64,000 nucleotides of DNA from Acidihalobacter ferrooxydans (GTDB lineage: Bacteria; Pseudomonadota; Gammaproteobacteria; DSM-5130; Acidihalobacteraceae): the NCBI RefSeq assembly GCF_001975725.1, contig NZ_CP019434.1:806001-870000 (forward strand). Reading direction: 5' to 3'. The notes beneath the pieces are model-generated. The model did not search any database and was not told the DNA's origin. It was given only the letters and a program-made list of their open reading frames with translations. A program made the translations under genes and the position numbers. This document shows, piece after piece, positions 1,292 through 54,783 of the stretch. Position 1 is the stretch's first letter, and each line of letters starts with the position of its first letter.

Positions 1292-2149
1292 GGTTGCCTC
1301 CGGTCGTTAGGGTGCCAATGCATCGATGACAAGGCAAACGAGTCTGCCGGGAAAGGCCCGCGACACGACGCCGCACGGCGGCCATGCGCGCAGGTTCTGC
1401 CAACCTGATGCCGGGTCGGCAGGCTCAGCGTCCCGCAACGCGTTGCCTGCGCACATTTCATTTCTGTGTCGATTCATTTTGTTTCGATCCATTGTTGAGT
1501 TCAGATTATCCATTGGGAAAAGCGTTCTTGTTTGATCTTTGAATTCACAGTGTGCTTCTTCGCTCTGGCATGGCGCAACGATGCCGCTCGCTGAAGAAAA
1601 TTCCCTGTAAGTTCATTTGTCTGTGCAATCATTACCGTGTCTGACGGCGGATCCGGGTTGAAGTCCAATAGTGCTGCAAGCAGTTCTTGCTCCTGTACTC
1701 AGTCGTGCGTTGGGGGCATGTGCTTACGCCAAGGCCACACGAACGATCAATCCCCAACGCGTTGCCGCAAGCGTCACGGTCGGTCAGGCGTCAGCAGTCT
1801 GCCGGACTTGGAGCGGCGACGAATCGAGTGGGGGCCATGCGCTGGCTCAGCGTCGCAGTCGATTCTGCTCAGGCCCGACTGGCACCTGGACGGTGTTGAT
1901 CACCTTGGCGCCCTTGTCTGACCGGCCCGGCGCGGTTACCGATACGAGTGAGCGTTCTCATCCGCGCAGGGTTCACTGTTTGATTATTCGCGCCGCACGT
2001 GCAAATGGTTTCGCCTCCTCTATATCGATGCACAATCCACTGGGCAGGGATCGCCGTCTGACGTGTGCGTCGGGTTTTGGCGACATTTGAGGACTTGTCC
2101 TGACGTGGTCGAGAATGCCTCCATGGTCAATTCGACACGGGAGCAAAAA
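1292..2149. other. 858-bp intergenic region upstream of opgG
   Basis: This gap separates two divergent genes. Its centre holds a family B element in reverse orientation (about 1500-1661). The remainder shows no open frame with convincing protein character. A frame at about 1671-2090 has no signal peptide, ribosome site or recognisable domain. Promoters for both flanking genes should be here, but I cannot place them confidently. Confidence 0.5.
1500..1661 (-). repeat. Family B MITE-like element, copy B1
   Basis: Read on the minus strand it starts CTTCAACCCGGATCC, then TGATTGCACAGAC, then CAGGGAATTTTCTTCAGCG, GAGCGGCATCGTTGCGCC and GAGCGAAGAAGCACAC. The same blocks occur in the same order at 43324-43485 and in the other B copies. 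There is no coding capacity. The right end is less conserved, so the lower boundary is approximate. Confidence 0.65.
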
Positions 2150-23687: not shown

Positions 23688-23856
23688 CTAGGAGCCTGTC
23701 GGACTTGGAAAGAATCGGCTGCGACGATGGGATAATGGGTCCATTTCCACGCTCTTTTTCGTCGAATAGAACCACTATTGTCCTCAAAAGACCGTGAAAC
23801 TGGCCTCCATTCCCCACTCGCCTCGCTTCGATCCTCCAAGTCCGACAGGCTCCTAG
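23688..23856 (+). repeat. Complete family A MITE-like element, copy A5
   Basis: 169 bp bounded by perfect 22-bp inverted repeats (23688-23709 and 23835-23856), each including an outer CTAG. The inner part carries CTGCGACGATGGGATAATGG, TCCACGCTCTTTTTCGTCG, and CTCAAAAGACCGTGAAACTG. It has no credible coding potential. The inverted copy at 39842-40008 is about 97 percent identical by eye. CTAG on both sides could be a 4-bp target duplication, as seen with some IS5-group elements. Confidence 0.85.
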
Positions 23857-23909
23857 GGCTCGCATTGCCCCGCCAGCGAGCCTCCTGCCGGCAGCGCCTC
23901 GTCAGGCGT

Positions 23910-26358: not shown

Positions 26359-26769
26359 GTGTGGGTGGCTCCAGGAATTTGCCGGCTTGATTTGCCGGAT
26401 GGGTGTTGCGGATTTCAATGCGGGGCTTGCATGAGGCAAGGTGATGATTGCGCAGCGACGTGGACTCATTGGGGTTTTTCTTCAGCGAGCGGCCGCGTGG
26501 CATCATGCCCGAAAAAAATTGAGTTGATTCAATGGTCAGGCAAGGGTGTCTCTCCTGATGGATTGTCCGGGTCAAAGGAGTCGCCGTGCGGAGCGCGGGG
26601 CAGCGTTTCATTATCCCACCGCAACGGCGGATTCGGGCATAACGTGGGGCGAAGCAAGGTGCGGCAGCCGTTGCACGGCTACGGTCGAAGGGGCTTGAAA
26701 CCGATGCGATGCGGCGCGTGGTGCGTATGCCGCTGAACTGCCCGTGGCCGCGCTGCTGGCCGAATTGCC
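26359..26769. other. Intergenic region containing family B copy B2
   Basis: About 411 bp between the DMT transporter and mmsA. The family B element at 26407-26575 occupies its centre. The rest (26576-26769) shows no gene or recognisable signal. Confidence 0.45.
26407..26575 (+). repeat. Family B MITE-like element, copy B2
   Basis: Starts near TGCGGATTTCAATG and shares GGTGATGATTGCGCAGCG, TGGACTCATTGGGG, TTCTTCAGCGAGCGG and GCATCATGCCCGA with the other copies. It ends TGATGGATTGTCCGGGTCAA, matching the GGGTTAA-type right end of B5. About 169 bp with no coding capacity. Confidence 0.7.
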
Positions 26770-30227: not shown

Positions 30228-30360
30228 AATTCAATCAGAATTGCCTGTTAGGCGAGGCGATGATTGCGCAGAGATTTAGATTCAGTGGGAATCTTTTTCA
30301 GCGACCGGCAGCGTTGCGCTATGCCTGAGCGAAGGCGCAATCTGTGGATGCAAAGCGCAA
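30228..30360 (+). repeat. Family B MITE-like element, copy B3
   Basis: Contains GGCGATGATTGCGCAGAG, TTAGATTCAGTGGGAA, TTTTTCAGCGACCGGCAGCG, TTGCGCTATGCCTGAGCG, and CAATCTGTGGATGCAAAGC in the family order. The right end appears lost next to the A6 mini-element. Confidence 0.7.
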
Positions 30361-39771: not shown

Positions 39772-39841
39772 TCGTGCCCTGCGGCATCTTTGTTGGCAGC
39801 GTTTGTTAAATATGGCCGAAGCACCCGGCTCGCGAAGCGCT

Positions 39842-40008
39842 GGGAGCCTGTCGGACTTGGAGGATCGTAGCGAGGCGAGCGGGGAATGGAGGCCAGTTTC
39901 ACGGTCTTTTGAGGACAATAGTGGTTCTATTCGACGAAAAAGAGCGTGGAAATGGACCCATTATCCCATCGCCGCAGCCGATTCTTTCCAAGTTCGACAG
40001 GCTCCTAG
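39842..40008 (-). repeat. Complete family A MITE-like element, copy A7 (inverted)
   Basis: Inverted relative to A5 (23688-23856) and differing at only about five positions over 165 bp. Ends are GGAGCCTGTCGGACTTGGA on the left and TCCAAGTTCGACAGGCTCC on the right, then CTAG. The left flank reads GCTG where CTAG would be expected. It lies between cysS and fumC, about 40 bp upstream of the fumC start. Confidence 0.85.
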
Positions 40009-40050: not shown

Positions 40051-41457
40051 ATGAGCAACGCAATCGAGGGTGTGGATACGCAGGCCGGACAGGGCGATCG
40101 CATCGAACACGACAGCATGGGTGAGTTGCGGGTGCCGGCCGCGGCGCTCTGGGGCGCTCAGACGCAGCGCGCGGTGGAGAATTTCCCGGTCAGCGGCATG
40201 CCGATGCCACGCGGTTTCATCCGCGCGCTCGGTCTGGTGAAGGCCGCCTGCGCGGTGGCCAATCTCGAACTCGGCACACTGGATGGCGAACGGGCCGAGG
40301 CGATTCGCCAGGCGGCGCTGGCTGTGGCCGAGGGTCGGTACGATGCGCACTTTCCGATCGACGTGTTCCAGACCGGCTCCGGCACCAGCAGCAACATGAA
40401 TGCCAACGAGGTGATCGCGCATCTGGCGAGCGCGGCCTGCGGCAAAGCGGTGCACCCCAATGACCACGTCAATTACGGGCAGAGTTCCAACGATGTCGTC
40501 CCGACCGCGCTGCATGTCGGTGCAGCCTTGCTGATCGAGGAGAGTCTGCTGCCGGCGCTTCAGCACCTGGAGGCGGCGATCCTGGCCCGCGCCGACGAGC
40601 TCAAGGGCCACACCAAGACCGGTCGCACACATTTGATGGATGCGATGCCGGTGCGCCTCGATCAGGAACTCGGTGGTTGGGCGGCGCAGGTGCGCAACGC
40701 GCAGCGGCGGATCGCGCAGGCCGCAGAGGGCTTGCATGCGCTGGCGCTGGGCGGTACGGCCGTCGGCACCGGCGTCAATGCCGTGCCCGGCGCCGCCGAG
40801 GCAGCAATCGCCTGGCTGGCCGATGAAACCGGTGTGGCATTTCGCCCCAATGACAACCGCTTCGAGGCATTGAGTTCGCAGGATGCGGCGGTGGCGGCGA
40901 GCGGCGCGCTGAAGTCGCTGGCTACCGCGCTGATGAAAATCGCCAACGATCTGCGCTGGATGAACTCCGGGCCGCTGGCCGGCCTGGGTGAAATCAGTCT
41001 GCAGTCATTGCAGCCGGGCAGCAGCATCATGCCGGGCAAGGTGAACCCGGTGATTCCCGAGGCGGTGTGCCAGGTCGCGGCGCAGATGATCGGTAACGAT
41101 GCGGCAATCACCATTGGCGGGCAGGCGGGCAATTTTCAGCTCAACGTGATGCTGCCGCTGATCACGCACAATCTTTTGCAGAGCATTGAATTGGCCGCGA
41201 ACGTGTCGCGTTTGCTGGCCGATCGGGCGATTGCGGGCTTTACGGTGAACGCGCCGCGCCTGAGCGCTGCACTGGATCGCAACCCGATTCTGGTCACTGC
41301 GCTTAATGCCAGAATTGGCTACGAGCGCGGCGCGGCGATAGCCAAGCGCGCGTATGCCGAGGGTCGCCCGGTGCTCGACGTGGCCTGCGAAATGACCGAT
41401 CTCGAGCGGGAAGAACTGGCCGCACTGCTCGATCCGCGACAACTGACCGGCTCCTGA
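40051..41457 (+). CDS. fumC: Fumarate hydratase class II
   Basis: A 468-residue iron-independent fumarase of the citric acid cycle. The class signature GSSIMPGKVNPVIPE is present near residue 325. Earlier landmarks are FQTGSGTSSNMNANEV, NYGQSSNDVVPTA and GRTHLMDAMPVRLDQE with catalytic His. Length is typical. The ATG at 40051 has CAAGGACACCG upstream. Family A copies flank it on both sides (A7 and A8). FumC is the oxygen-stable form, sensible for an aerobe also encoding a bo3 oxidase. Confidence 0.96.
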   Translation: MSNAIEGVDTQAGQGDRIEHDSMGELRVPAAALWGAQTQRAVENFPVSGMPMPRGFIRALGLVKAACAVANLELGTLDGERAEAIRQAALAVAEGRYDAHFPIDVFQTGSGTSSNMNANEVIAHLASAACGKAVHPNDHVNYGQSSNDVVPTALHVGAALLIEESLLPALQHLEAAILARADELKGHTKTGRTHLMDAMPVRLDQELGGWAAQVRNAQRRIAQAAEGLHALALGGTAVGTGVNAVPGAAEAAIAWLADETGVAFRPNDNRFEALSSQDAAVAASGALKSLATALMKIANDLRWMNSGPLAGLGEISLQSLQPGSSIMPGKVNPVIPEAVCQVAAQMIGNDAAITIGGQAGNFQLNVMLPLITHNLLQSIELAANVSRLLADRAIAGFTVNAPRLSAALDRNPILVTALNARIGYERGAAIAKRAYAEGRPVLDVACEMTDLEREELAALLDPRQLTGS

Positions 41458-41468
41458 GAACATCGCCT

Positions 41469-41765
41469 GGAGCCTGCCGGACTTGGAAAAAATCGGCTGC
41501 GGCGATGGGATGATGGGGGCCATTGTCCTTAACCCGAATGTTTCACAAGTTCCCGCCGCTCTCGCGGGTCTCTTGATTCCACAAGGGATATTTCCTCAGT
41601 CGGCCGTAATCACCTATACGGCGCTCCCTCTGGAATCCCCTTGTGAAAACAGTATCCGGCGCGATACCAGCACTCGTTATGAAACATTCGGGTTAAAAAG
41701 ACCGGGCGCCGGCCTCCATCGCTCAGGCGCCTCGCCACGATCCTTCAAGTCCGACCGGCTCCTGG
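41469..41765 (+). repeat. Family A element A8, interrupted by another element
   Basis: Left part (41469-41528) matches A5 through GATGGGATGATGGGGGCC and CATTGTCC. The right part resumes at 41697 with AAAGACCGG, GCCTCCATCGC, GATCCTTCAAGTCCGACCGG. Together they make one family A copy split by the inserted element. The terminal ends are GGAGCCTGCCGGACTTGGA and TCAAGTCCGACCGGCTCC. Confidence 0.85.
41529..41696. mobile_element. 168-bp TTAACCCG-ended element nested in family A copy A8
   Basis: Bounded by perfect 17-bp inverted repeats, TTAACCCGAATGTTTCA (41529-41545) and TGAAACATTCGGGTTAA (41680-41696). It interrupts A8 within the stretch that reads ATTGTCCTCAAAAGACCG in A5. TTAA at both ends may be a target duplication, suggesting a TTAA-specific transposase (IS1380-type or similar; inferred). 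Read backwards, its first 67 bases match 54721-54783 (right half of B6). It has no open frame of note. Confidence 0.8.
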
Positions 41766-42063: not shown

Positions 42064-43326
42064 ATGAATCAATCTGCCGATCGTAATGTACGCAACGCAC
42101 TGAAAAAACGCTTTTCGCTCGGGTATATGGCGCGTCTGCGCATGTTGCAGAGCCGGGTGTACCGGGCCTTGCGTATGAATATCTGGTTTCCGCATGCGCC
42201 GATCGCGGTGCTCGTGGGGCTGGCCGGATTGGCTGAACTGCTGCCCGCGCTCGGTTCCCTGACGCGGCTGGTTTCCTTCGTCGCGGTGCCGGCCAAGGAT
42301 CTCAAGGGCTTTTCGCAGGGCTTCGATACCCTGGCGATCCACGGCGTGTCACTGGAGTTGATCGGCGGGTTGCTGGTGCTGCTCTCGCTGGGTCTGCTAT
42401 GGCGTTCGCGGCTGGCCTGGGTGCTGACCTTGCTGATGACCGCGGCGACGGTCGGCCTGCAATTCGTCCCCCATACGACACCGCATATCAGCATCATCGC
42501 TTACAACGGCGCCTTGCTGGTGCTGCTGTATCTGACGCGAGACAGCTTCCAGCGCGCCAGCCTGGCTACGAGCACACTGTTCGCGCTGCTCGGCGTGTTG
42601 CTGACCGTGGGTTACGGCGTGCTCGGCAGTTACACGCTCGGCGCCGGGTTTTCACCGGCAATCACCAATGTCACGGATGCGCTGTATTTCACCGTGGTCA
42701 CCTTGTCGACGGTCGGCTACGGCGATATTACGCCGCACTCGACGGACGCGCGGTTCTTCACCATGTCGCTGATCGTGCTCGGCCTGGCGGTATTCGCCAG
42801 CGCGCTGACCGCCATCGCCGGTCCGTTAATCAATCAGCGCATGATCAATCTGCTTCAACCCAGGAAAAAACCGATGAAACGCAAGGATCACATCATCGTG
42901 GTAGGCGACAACTCGCTGGCACGTAACGCCATCAAGGCGCTGAGCCAGCGCGGGATTCCCGTCACGGCTGTCTGGGAGCAGCGGCCGCCCGAAGGCATGG
43001 AGGTGCCGGAGGATCTGGTGATCGGCGATGGCGGCGACAGCGACGTGTTGCGCAATGCCGACGTGACTCAGGCGCGCGCGGTACTGGCGCTCACCGAGGA
43101 CGATTCCGAGAACGCTTTCGTCGCGCTGGCCGCCAGGGATGCCAACGAACATGTGCGCACCGTGGTGGCGATCAGCGATGCGAACAACATGAGCCGGGTG
43201 CGCCACGTGCGCCCCGACGTGGTGCTGGCCCTGCCGGTGATCGGTGGCGAACTGCTGGCGATGGCCTTGAGCGGCGAAGAAATCAAGACCGACGAATTGT
43301 TGGAGCAGTTGTTGCAACTGGCTTGA
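42064..43326 (+). CDS. Voltage-gated-type potassium channel (Kch-like) with TrkA-N domain
   Basis: A 420-residue inner-membrane K+ channel. About six membrane segments (43-63, 95-113, 118-135, 145-160, 167-190, 233-253) enclose a pore loop with the selectivity filter TVGYGD at 216-221. After a basic linker (LLQPRKKPMKRKD) comes an RCK/TrkA-N regulatory domain from about 274 (HIIVVGDNSLARNAIKALSQ). Its nucleotide-binding turn reads GDNSLA, not GxGxxG, so NAD binding may be altered, as in E. coli Kch (417 residues), its closest match in layout. Confidence 0.9.
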   Translation: MNQSADRNVRNALKKRFSLGYMARLRMLQSRVYRALRMNIWFPHAPIAVLVGLAGLAELLPALGSLTRLVSFVAVPAKDLKGFSQGFDTLAIHGVSLELIGGLLVLLSLGLLWRSRLAWVLTLLMTAATVGLQFVPHTTPHISIIAYNGALLVLLYLTRDSFQRASLATSTLFALLGVLLTVGYGVLGSYTLGAGFSPAITNVTDALYFTVVTLSTVGYGDITPHSTDARFFTMSLIVLGLAVFASALTAIAGPLINQRMINLLQPRKKPMKRKDHIIVVGDNSLARNAIKALSQRGIPVTAVWEQRPPEGMEVPEDLVIGDGGDSDVLRNADVTQARAVLALTEDDSENAFVALAARDANEHVRTVVAISDANNMSRVRHVRPDVVLALPVIGGELLAMALSGEEIKTDELLEQLLQLA

Positions 43327-43485
43327 ACCCGGATATTCCATGCGCCGAGGTGCTGATTGCGCCACGATCTGGACTCACAGGGAAAATTCTTCAGCGAGCG
43401 GCATCGTTGCGCGATGCCCGAGCGAAGAAACACGCTGTGATTTCAGGATCAAGCAAAAGTGCATCTCCGAGTGGATGATAAGTAG
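43324..43485 (+). repeat. Family B MITE-like element, copy B4
   Basis: Begins TGAACCCGGATATTCCATG immediately at the channel gene stop. It contains GGTGCTGATTGCGCCACG, GGACTCACAGGGAAAATTC, TTCAGCGAGCGGCATCG, TTGCGCGATGCCCGAGCG and TTTCAGGATCAAGCAAAAG. It is the best-preserved left half in the window; the right end is weak. Confidence 0.75.
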
Positions 43486-46328: not shown

Positions 46329-46378
46329 CGGCCACTGCACCGCCCTGCACGTCCCGAGTCCCCAGAGTTCGGGATTAC

Positions 46379-46470
46379 GTAGGGTGGATAAGCGCAGCGC
46401 ATCCACCGATCCCAGGTTACGGCACCGCACCGACCGCTGTGGTGGATGCGCTATCGCTTATCCACCCTAC
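46379..46470. repeat. Family C hairpin repeat, complete inverted pair
   Basis: GTAGGGTGGATAAGCGCAGC... (46379-46407) is matched by its reverse complement at 46441-46470 with two mismatches, around a 33-bp centre. As RNA it would form a long hairpin. GTAGGGTGGA-type repeats of this kind are widespread in gammaproteobacterial genomes. Here it directly follows corA and may act as its terminator. Confidence 0.85.
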
Positions 46471-46565
46471 ACGGGCCCAGGCGGTTCGGTGTTGACTCGC
46501 CGTCTGGCTGGTGGTTGATGCGCGGCTCCGTTTTGCACGACTCGGCTCCGAGACTCCAAGAATCC

Positions 46566-46628
46566 GTAGGGTGGATAAGCGCAGCGCATCCACCGATCCC
46601 AAGCTGCGGCGTTGCACCGACCGCCGTA
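46566..46628. repeat. Family C repeat, half copy
   Basis: Repeats the left arm and centre of the 46379 unit (GTAGGGTGGATAAGCG, then GCATCCACCGATCCCA, then TTGCACCGACCGC). The right arm is lost, ending GCCGTACCGGCTGCG. The preceding bases (GACTCCAAGAATCC) also resemble those before the first copy. Confidence 0.8.
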
Positions 46629-46685
46629 CCGGCTGCGTTCAGCATCGCCCGGGTCTGGTGCGCCGGGTGCGCCGGCAATGGCGGG

Positions 46686-54622: not shown

Positions 54623-54783
54623 ATTCCGGATATGCCATTAGACGATGTGATGAGTGCGCAGAAATCTGGATTCACGGGGAGGTTCTGAGCGGCGGCATAT
54701 CGGCGATGATGGTCGACGGATGAAATAGCTCTTGTGGAATCAGGAGGCCCGCGAGATCGGCGGTGGCCGTGAAAGATTCGGGC
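54623..54783 (+). repeat. Family B MITE-like element, copy B6 (links B to the nested element)
   Basis: The left half (ATTCCGGATATGCC, GTGATGAGTGCGCAGAA, TCTGGATTCACGGGGAG) is family B. The right half (54721-54783: GAAATAGCTCTTGTGGAATC, AGGAGGCCCGCGAGATCGG, GTGAAAGATTCGGG) matches the reverse complement of the first 67 bases of the element at 41529-41696. So the two are parts of one larger element family. Confidence 0.7.

Follow-up and report, generated by a model that had tools for sequence, protein, structure and literature searches.

The insertion sequences of the IS1380 family (DDE_Tnp_1_4, PF13701; NCBIfam NF033539) have ends of the kind CCCGRATRTTTCA and make 4-bp target duplications of the CTAG/CTAA type. 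The repeat described here, named family B, resembles them in both respects and differs from them in being gene-less and 160 bp long, in having an interior unrelated to the insertion sequence copies compared and in carrying an exact version of the end which is present on no insertion sequence of this genome. The second group of related systems is that of the bacterial miniature inverted-repeat elements (MITEs), examples of which are MITEAba12, the Coxiella QMITEs and Chunjie (PMC10969869). Like these, B is short and gene-less, has inverted ends and target duplications, is present in many copies including internal deletion variants, and takes part in nesting; unlike bacterial MITEs in general, its ends and its target belong to IS1380. 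The IS1380 family is not mentioned in a review on MITEs (PMC10969869), a full-text search of the papers available for an IS1380 MITE found no description, and the exact end of B used as a search string returned unrelated matches only. The third system is piggyBac, which shares its TTAA target with the B copy analysed here and differs from B as a whole, whose target is YTAR; IS1380 transposases are used as outgroup in work on piggyBac (PMC10813416).

The DNA analysed, hereafter the window, is a stretch of 64,000 nucleotides of Acidihalobacter ferrooxydans (NZ_CP019434.1, positions 806,001 to 870,000). The B element of interest lies on its plus strand at 41533-41692 and is a quasi-palindrome over its whole length. 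The left terminal inverted repeat, CCCGAATGTTTCA, is at 41533-41545 and the right one, which is CCCGAATGTTTCA on the minus strand (TGAAACATTCGGG as right end), at 41680-41692; outside them the target duplication TTAA is found at 41529-41532 and at 41693-41696. Both the ends and the duplication are observed directly. An earlier note on this DNA had described a 168-bp segment with perfect 17-bp inverted ends. These ends are real (41529-41545 and 41680-41696; none of 100 shuffled versions of the window had two such matches), but both counts include the duplicated palindromic tetranucleotide. In B copies elsewhere the 13-bp CCCGAATGTTTCA is constant, and outside it stand TTAG, TTGA, TTCA, CTAA and others, equal on both sides of each copy. 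Since these outer four bases vary, TTAA is a 4-bp target duplication and the element proper measures 160 bp; as TTAA reads the same on both strands, it extended the inverted repeat from its true 13 bp to an apparent 17 bp. No open reading frame of 100 amino acids or more is contained in the element, which is thus short, gene-less and bounded by perfect 13-bp ends, as is typical of a MITE. As membership of the IS1380 family goes with encoding a DDE transposase, the 160-bp B element is at most a dependent of that family and not itself a member.

The element is inserted in a copy of a second repeat, family A, which is likewise quasi-palindromic and MITE-like and differs from B in its ends (GAGCCTGTCGGACTTGGA) and its target (CTAG/CYRG). 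Family A elements are about 95 or 158-161 bp long and have CTAG-like flanks of 4 bp. IS1182 (PF13751) was considered as their source and rejected, PF13751 being absent from the genome. The interrupted copy, A8, has its left part at 41469-41528 and its right part at 41697-41763, both on the plus strand. Alignment with the uninterrupted copies A5 (23690-23862, plus strand) and A7 (39836-40008, minus strand) confirmed the earlier reading that A8 breaks off at ATTGTCC and that family A sequence restarts past the B segment. At the insertion point A5 and A7 read ATTGTCC-TCAA-AAGACC (in fuller form ...CACTATTGTCC-TCAA-AAGACCG...), and A8 reads ...GGCCATTGTCC-TTAA-[B]-TTAA-AAAGACC.... About thirty other A junctions read in the genome are uninterrupted, and all have TCAA. 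Because uninterrupted copies carry TCAA and not TTAA, A5 and A7, which had been taken as the empty site, show where B entered but not the exact bases before insertion; either the TCAA of A8 became TTAA by a C-to-T change that preceded the arrival of B, or A8 derives from a variant which had TTAA already. Compared with A5 and A7, the left part of A8 also lacks about 35 internal bp immediately 5' of the B segment; this deletion has ATT on either side. After TTAA, A8 has one extra A. The loss of these 35 bp is an event separate from the insertion of B.

The compound insertion of A8 and B is intergenic, between a fumarase-like open reading frame (by sequence; 40051-41457, plus strand) upstream and a potassium-channel-like one (42064-43326, plus strand, with a TVGYGD motif in its translation) downstream. 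In a congener (G001) the fumarase-like gene (fumC) and the channel-like gene are syntenic, and the gap between them, about 135 bp versus about 650 bp, contains neither A nor B. This directly observed empty orthologous site suggests that both insertions most likely arose in this lineage.

The copy number of B was determined in three ways. The 17-mer end had 89+92 matches in the genome with up to three mismatches, against 0 for the reversed pattern, and BLAST found 40 well-preserved copies. With a covariance model made from an alignment of 39 copies 137 matches were obtained, a few of which are the same copy on both strands; 150 of 1187 candidates were scored, so that the resulting count of at least about 130 copies, at unrelated sites in 3.45 Mb, is a lower bound. 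One of these, a diverged element on the minus strand at 54625-54782 (G000:860625-860782; 70.7 bits), is the second B element of the window. Single exact ends found in the genome (G000) belong mostly to B copies which are truncated, short (53-64 bp) or interrupted, and none of them, examined as a possible end of a larger autonomous element, had a partner at insertion sequence length with a transposase. Two very short variants of about 53-64 bp retain complete ends, L028 at 1505-1561 (G000:2883024 on) and L010 at 1505-1568 (G000:3129934 on), and one of the two has a TGAA duplication. In the 274 gammaproteobacterial genomes sampled, B-type elements (E <= 1e-5) were present in 27, belonging to 22 of 221 genera, and several genomes carried at least 10 copies. 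Target duplications are equally a direct observation: 19 of the 90 B copies read with their flanks have exact 4-bp duplications, against a mean of 2.9 and a largest value of 10 in 2000 shuffles. Column counts on both sides give YTAR as the target consensus.

The earlier note had proposed to search the genome for the 17-bp ends flanking a transposase. None was found between B's own ends in this genome, and the likely source is instead the group of IS1380 genes with matching or near-matching ends. The genome has two genes of this family, one intact (Pfam PF13701, 1e-161; NCBIfam transpos_IS1380, 1e-120) and one frame-broken, each bounded by CCCGGATATTTCA-type ends and, beyond these, by CTAG. The intact copy (L061) is flanked by CTAG-CCCGGATATTTCA and TGAAATATCCGGG-CTAG (in fuller form CTAG-CCCGGATATTTCACAAA...ATGAAATATCCGGG-CTAG); its end, the nearest of an intact resident IS1380 to that of B, matches it at 11 of 13 positions. 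IS1380 relatives with CCCGAATATTTCA or CCCGGATATTTCA ends occur in other genomes; such an end was present, with at most two mismatches, at 14 of 30 IS1380 loci, compared to 0 for the reversed control. The exact B end is carried by IS1380 loci of two relatives, at one end each: L133 in genome G002 and L258 in genome G267, the latter with at least 10 B copies. Both loci end in CCCGAATGTTTCATAA beside CTAG, the stretch identical to B being TTATGAAACATTCGGG-CTAG; the other end of L133 is degenerate and L258 is truncated by the end of its contig. Among the IS1380 loci compared, no copy with CCCGAATGTTTCA exactly at both ends was seen. In the IS1380 of an Endozoicomonas sp. Mp262 plasmid (L288) both ends are CCCGGATATTTCATAAA and the duplication is CTAA, so that IS1380 duplications (CTAG at L061, CTAA at L288) agree in length and kind with the 4-bp YTAR duplications of B. 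B copies of other genera have variants of the end, the left and right end of a copy agreeing with each other (CCCGGATTTCTCA, CCCGCATTTCTCA and others). The IS1380 locus L273 ends in CCCGAATTTCTCA, a pattern to be expected of B subfamilies which each follow an IS1380 of their own. As a separate observation, three regions of G002 (L133, L141 and L145) are identical over the whole 3987 bp compared and contain a frame-broken IS1380 gene beside another apparent transposase-type gene, which may reflect a recent duplication.

These similarities, together with the copy number and duplications of B and the empty site in the congener, make it probable that B is a non-autonomous MITE for which an IS1380-family DDE transposase acted in trans, and that it is nested in an older MITE. 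The main competing explanation, which we consider rather improbable, is that B is the MITE of another transposase family sharing CCCGAAT...TCA-type ends and 4-bp YTAR targets. It would account for the several B-rich genomes without an IS1380 gene: of 25 genomes with B elements, 17 gave no PF13701 match (E <= 1e-3); most of them are drafts, and they include G013, G081, G207 and G275, each with at least nine B copies, so that a matching transposase is not present wherever the MITE is abundant. In draft genomes copies of insertion sequences are often lost. It would also fit the interior of B, for which no similarity to the insertion sequences compared was detected beyond the terminal 16-19 bp; B is therefore not simply one of these sequences with its middle deleted. 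The IS1380 ends, however, match over 13 to 17 bp at many independent loci with CTAG or CTAA duplications, and a transposase of another family with these ends was not met in the families searched (IS1380/PF13701 and PF13751).

The B element folds on itself over its full length (-60.6 kcal/mol, z -6.0), and copies from other genera, in which the inner sequence is different, likewise form whole-length folds. When the hairpin of one copy (L035) was imposed on the alignment, 87% of cells paired, as compared to 35-46% when it was slid, and 18 pairs were changed on both sides versus 9.5 in shuffles, a comparison in which the shuffles ignore relatedness and the structure is taken from a member. With no structure given, RNAalifold found weak consensus pairs only in the mixed alignment, and Rfam had no match around the locus, which speaks neither for nor against a structured RNA. 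The comparison with the imposed hairpin is moderate evidence for a conservation of the hairpin across B copies. It is possible, though unlikely, that B is a single old lineage constrained in length (158-162 bp), with elements forming whole-length hairpins in many gammaproteobacterial genera, ends tracking the end variants of several IS1380 subclades and a hairpin under selection. The fold, and the pairs kept through some double changes, could further suggest an inherited variant of A8 or a structured RNA or REP-like repeat rather than a mobile insertion; this is very unlikely, as B copies lie at unrelated sites each with its own duplication, no other A copy read holds B at the position it has in A8 and the site in the congener is empty. 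The same evidence upholds what had been claimed from the first reading, that the segment is a discrete unit which was inserted independently.

The exact duplications were TTAA in five copies, TTGA in four, TTAG in three, CTAA in two and TCAA, TGAA, CTGA, TTCA and CTAT in one each. An element restricted to TTAA, as eukaryotic piggyBac is, or the TTAA-targeting enzyme which had been suggested for the two ends of this copy, would agree with TTAA being the commonest duplication, but is refuted as a rule by the other tetranucleotides in 14 of the 19 and by the YTAR consensus, and hardly merits further consideration.

For the IS1380-dependent MITE, the following course of events can be proposed. A family A MITE would have landed first, past the 3' end of the fumarase-like gene, and a stretch of about 35 bp would have been deleted from it. 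An IS1380-family transposase, recognising ends of the kind CCCGRATRTTTCA, would insert B at a YTAR tetranucleotide and leave the 4-bp duplication which the copies show; in this case B would have entered T(T/C)AA inside A8, duplicating TTAA. We infer an IS1380 transposase as the mobiliser, in which case the parent with exactly matching ends may have been lost from the genome, or the resident IS1380, with two of 13 end bases different, may have served.

The order of events proposed from the first reading, A before the nested element, holds at A8 and is not a general one. Family A sequence lies within 400 bp of 23 of the 90 B copies; many abut and some share the CTAG, as in the case of the B copy at 2314902-2315060, which is followed by CTAG-GAGCCT. 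In three instances, L197 (G000:3179010), L221 (G000:915288) and L241 (G000:3283323), an A element is inserted in B near B position 141; B reads CACTAG there, and its CTAG seems to be a site at which A has landed more than once. The B copies at 3200844 and 2754888 occupy positions in A other than that in A8. Targets for either family are thus present in the other, and the relative age that holds at A8 does not apply to the two families at large.

Further repeats were noted in passing. The frame-broken IS1380 (L062, 1034-2767; G000 ~3194256-3195989) is immediately followed by a family A element, with a CTAG common to both. A third repeat family, C, is present in the window at 26414-26512, 30230-30328, 43323-43421 and 1540-1663 (minus strand); the copy at 43323 starts with TTGAACCCGGATATTCCATGCGCCGAG, and one C copy interrupts B at G000:3344457. 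An IS1380 transposase of genome G025 (L134) has ends CCCAGATAATCCATTAGACGA which resemble the start of C, so that C may be another IS1380-type MITE. A pair of tandem repeats containing GTAGGGTGGATAAGCGCAGCGCATCCACC, at 46361-46450 and 46548-46637, is 80% identical and 187 bp apart.

Family B is a new MITE family of a known kind; the earlier reading is usefully corrected as to its boundary, its YTAR target and its likely mobiliser. Mutual nesting, with each MITE carrying the 4-bp target of the other, is a simple account of the repeat clusters of this genome. If the hairpin were indeed under selection, it could serve, for example, folding-dependent transposition or a role in transcripts. In other respects B is ordinary mobile-DNA biology. 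With its copies in a single genome and its relatives in 22 genera it is a well-sampled IS1380-type MITE, whose copies directly reveal YTAR, and not TTAA, as the target rule of the IS1380 lineage; this rule bears on the relation of the IS1380 group to the TTAA-specific piggyBac transposons.
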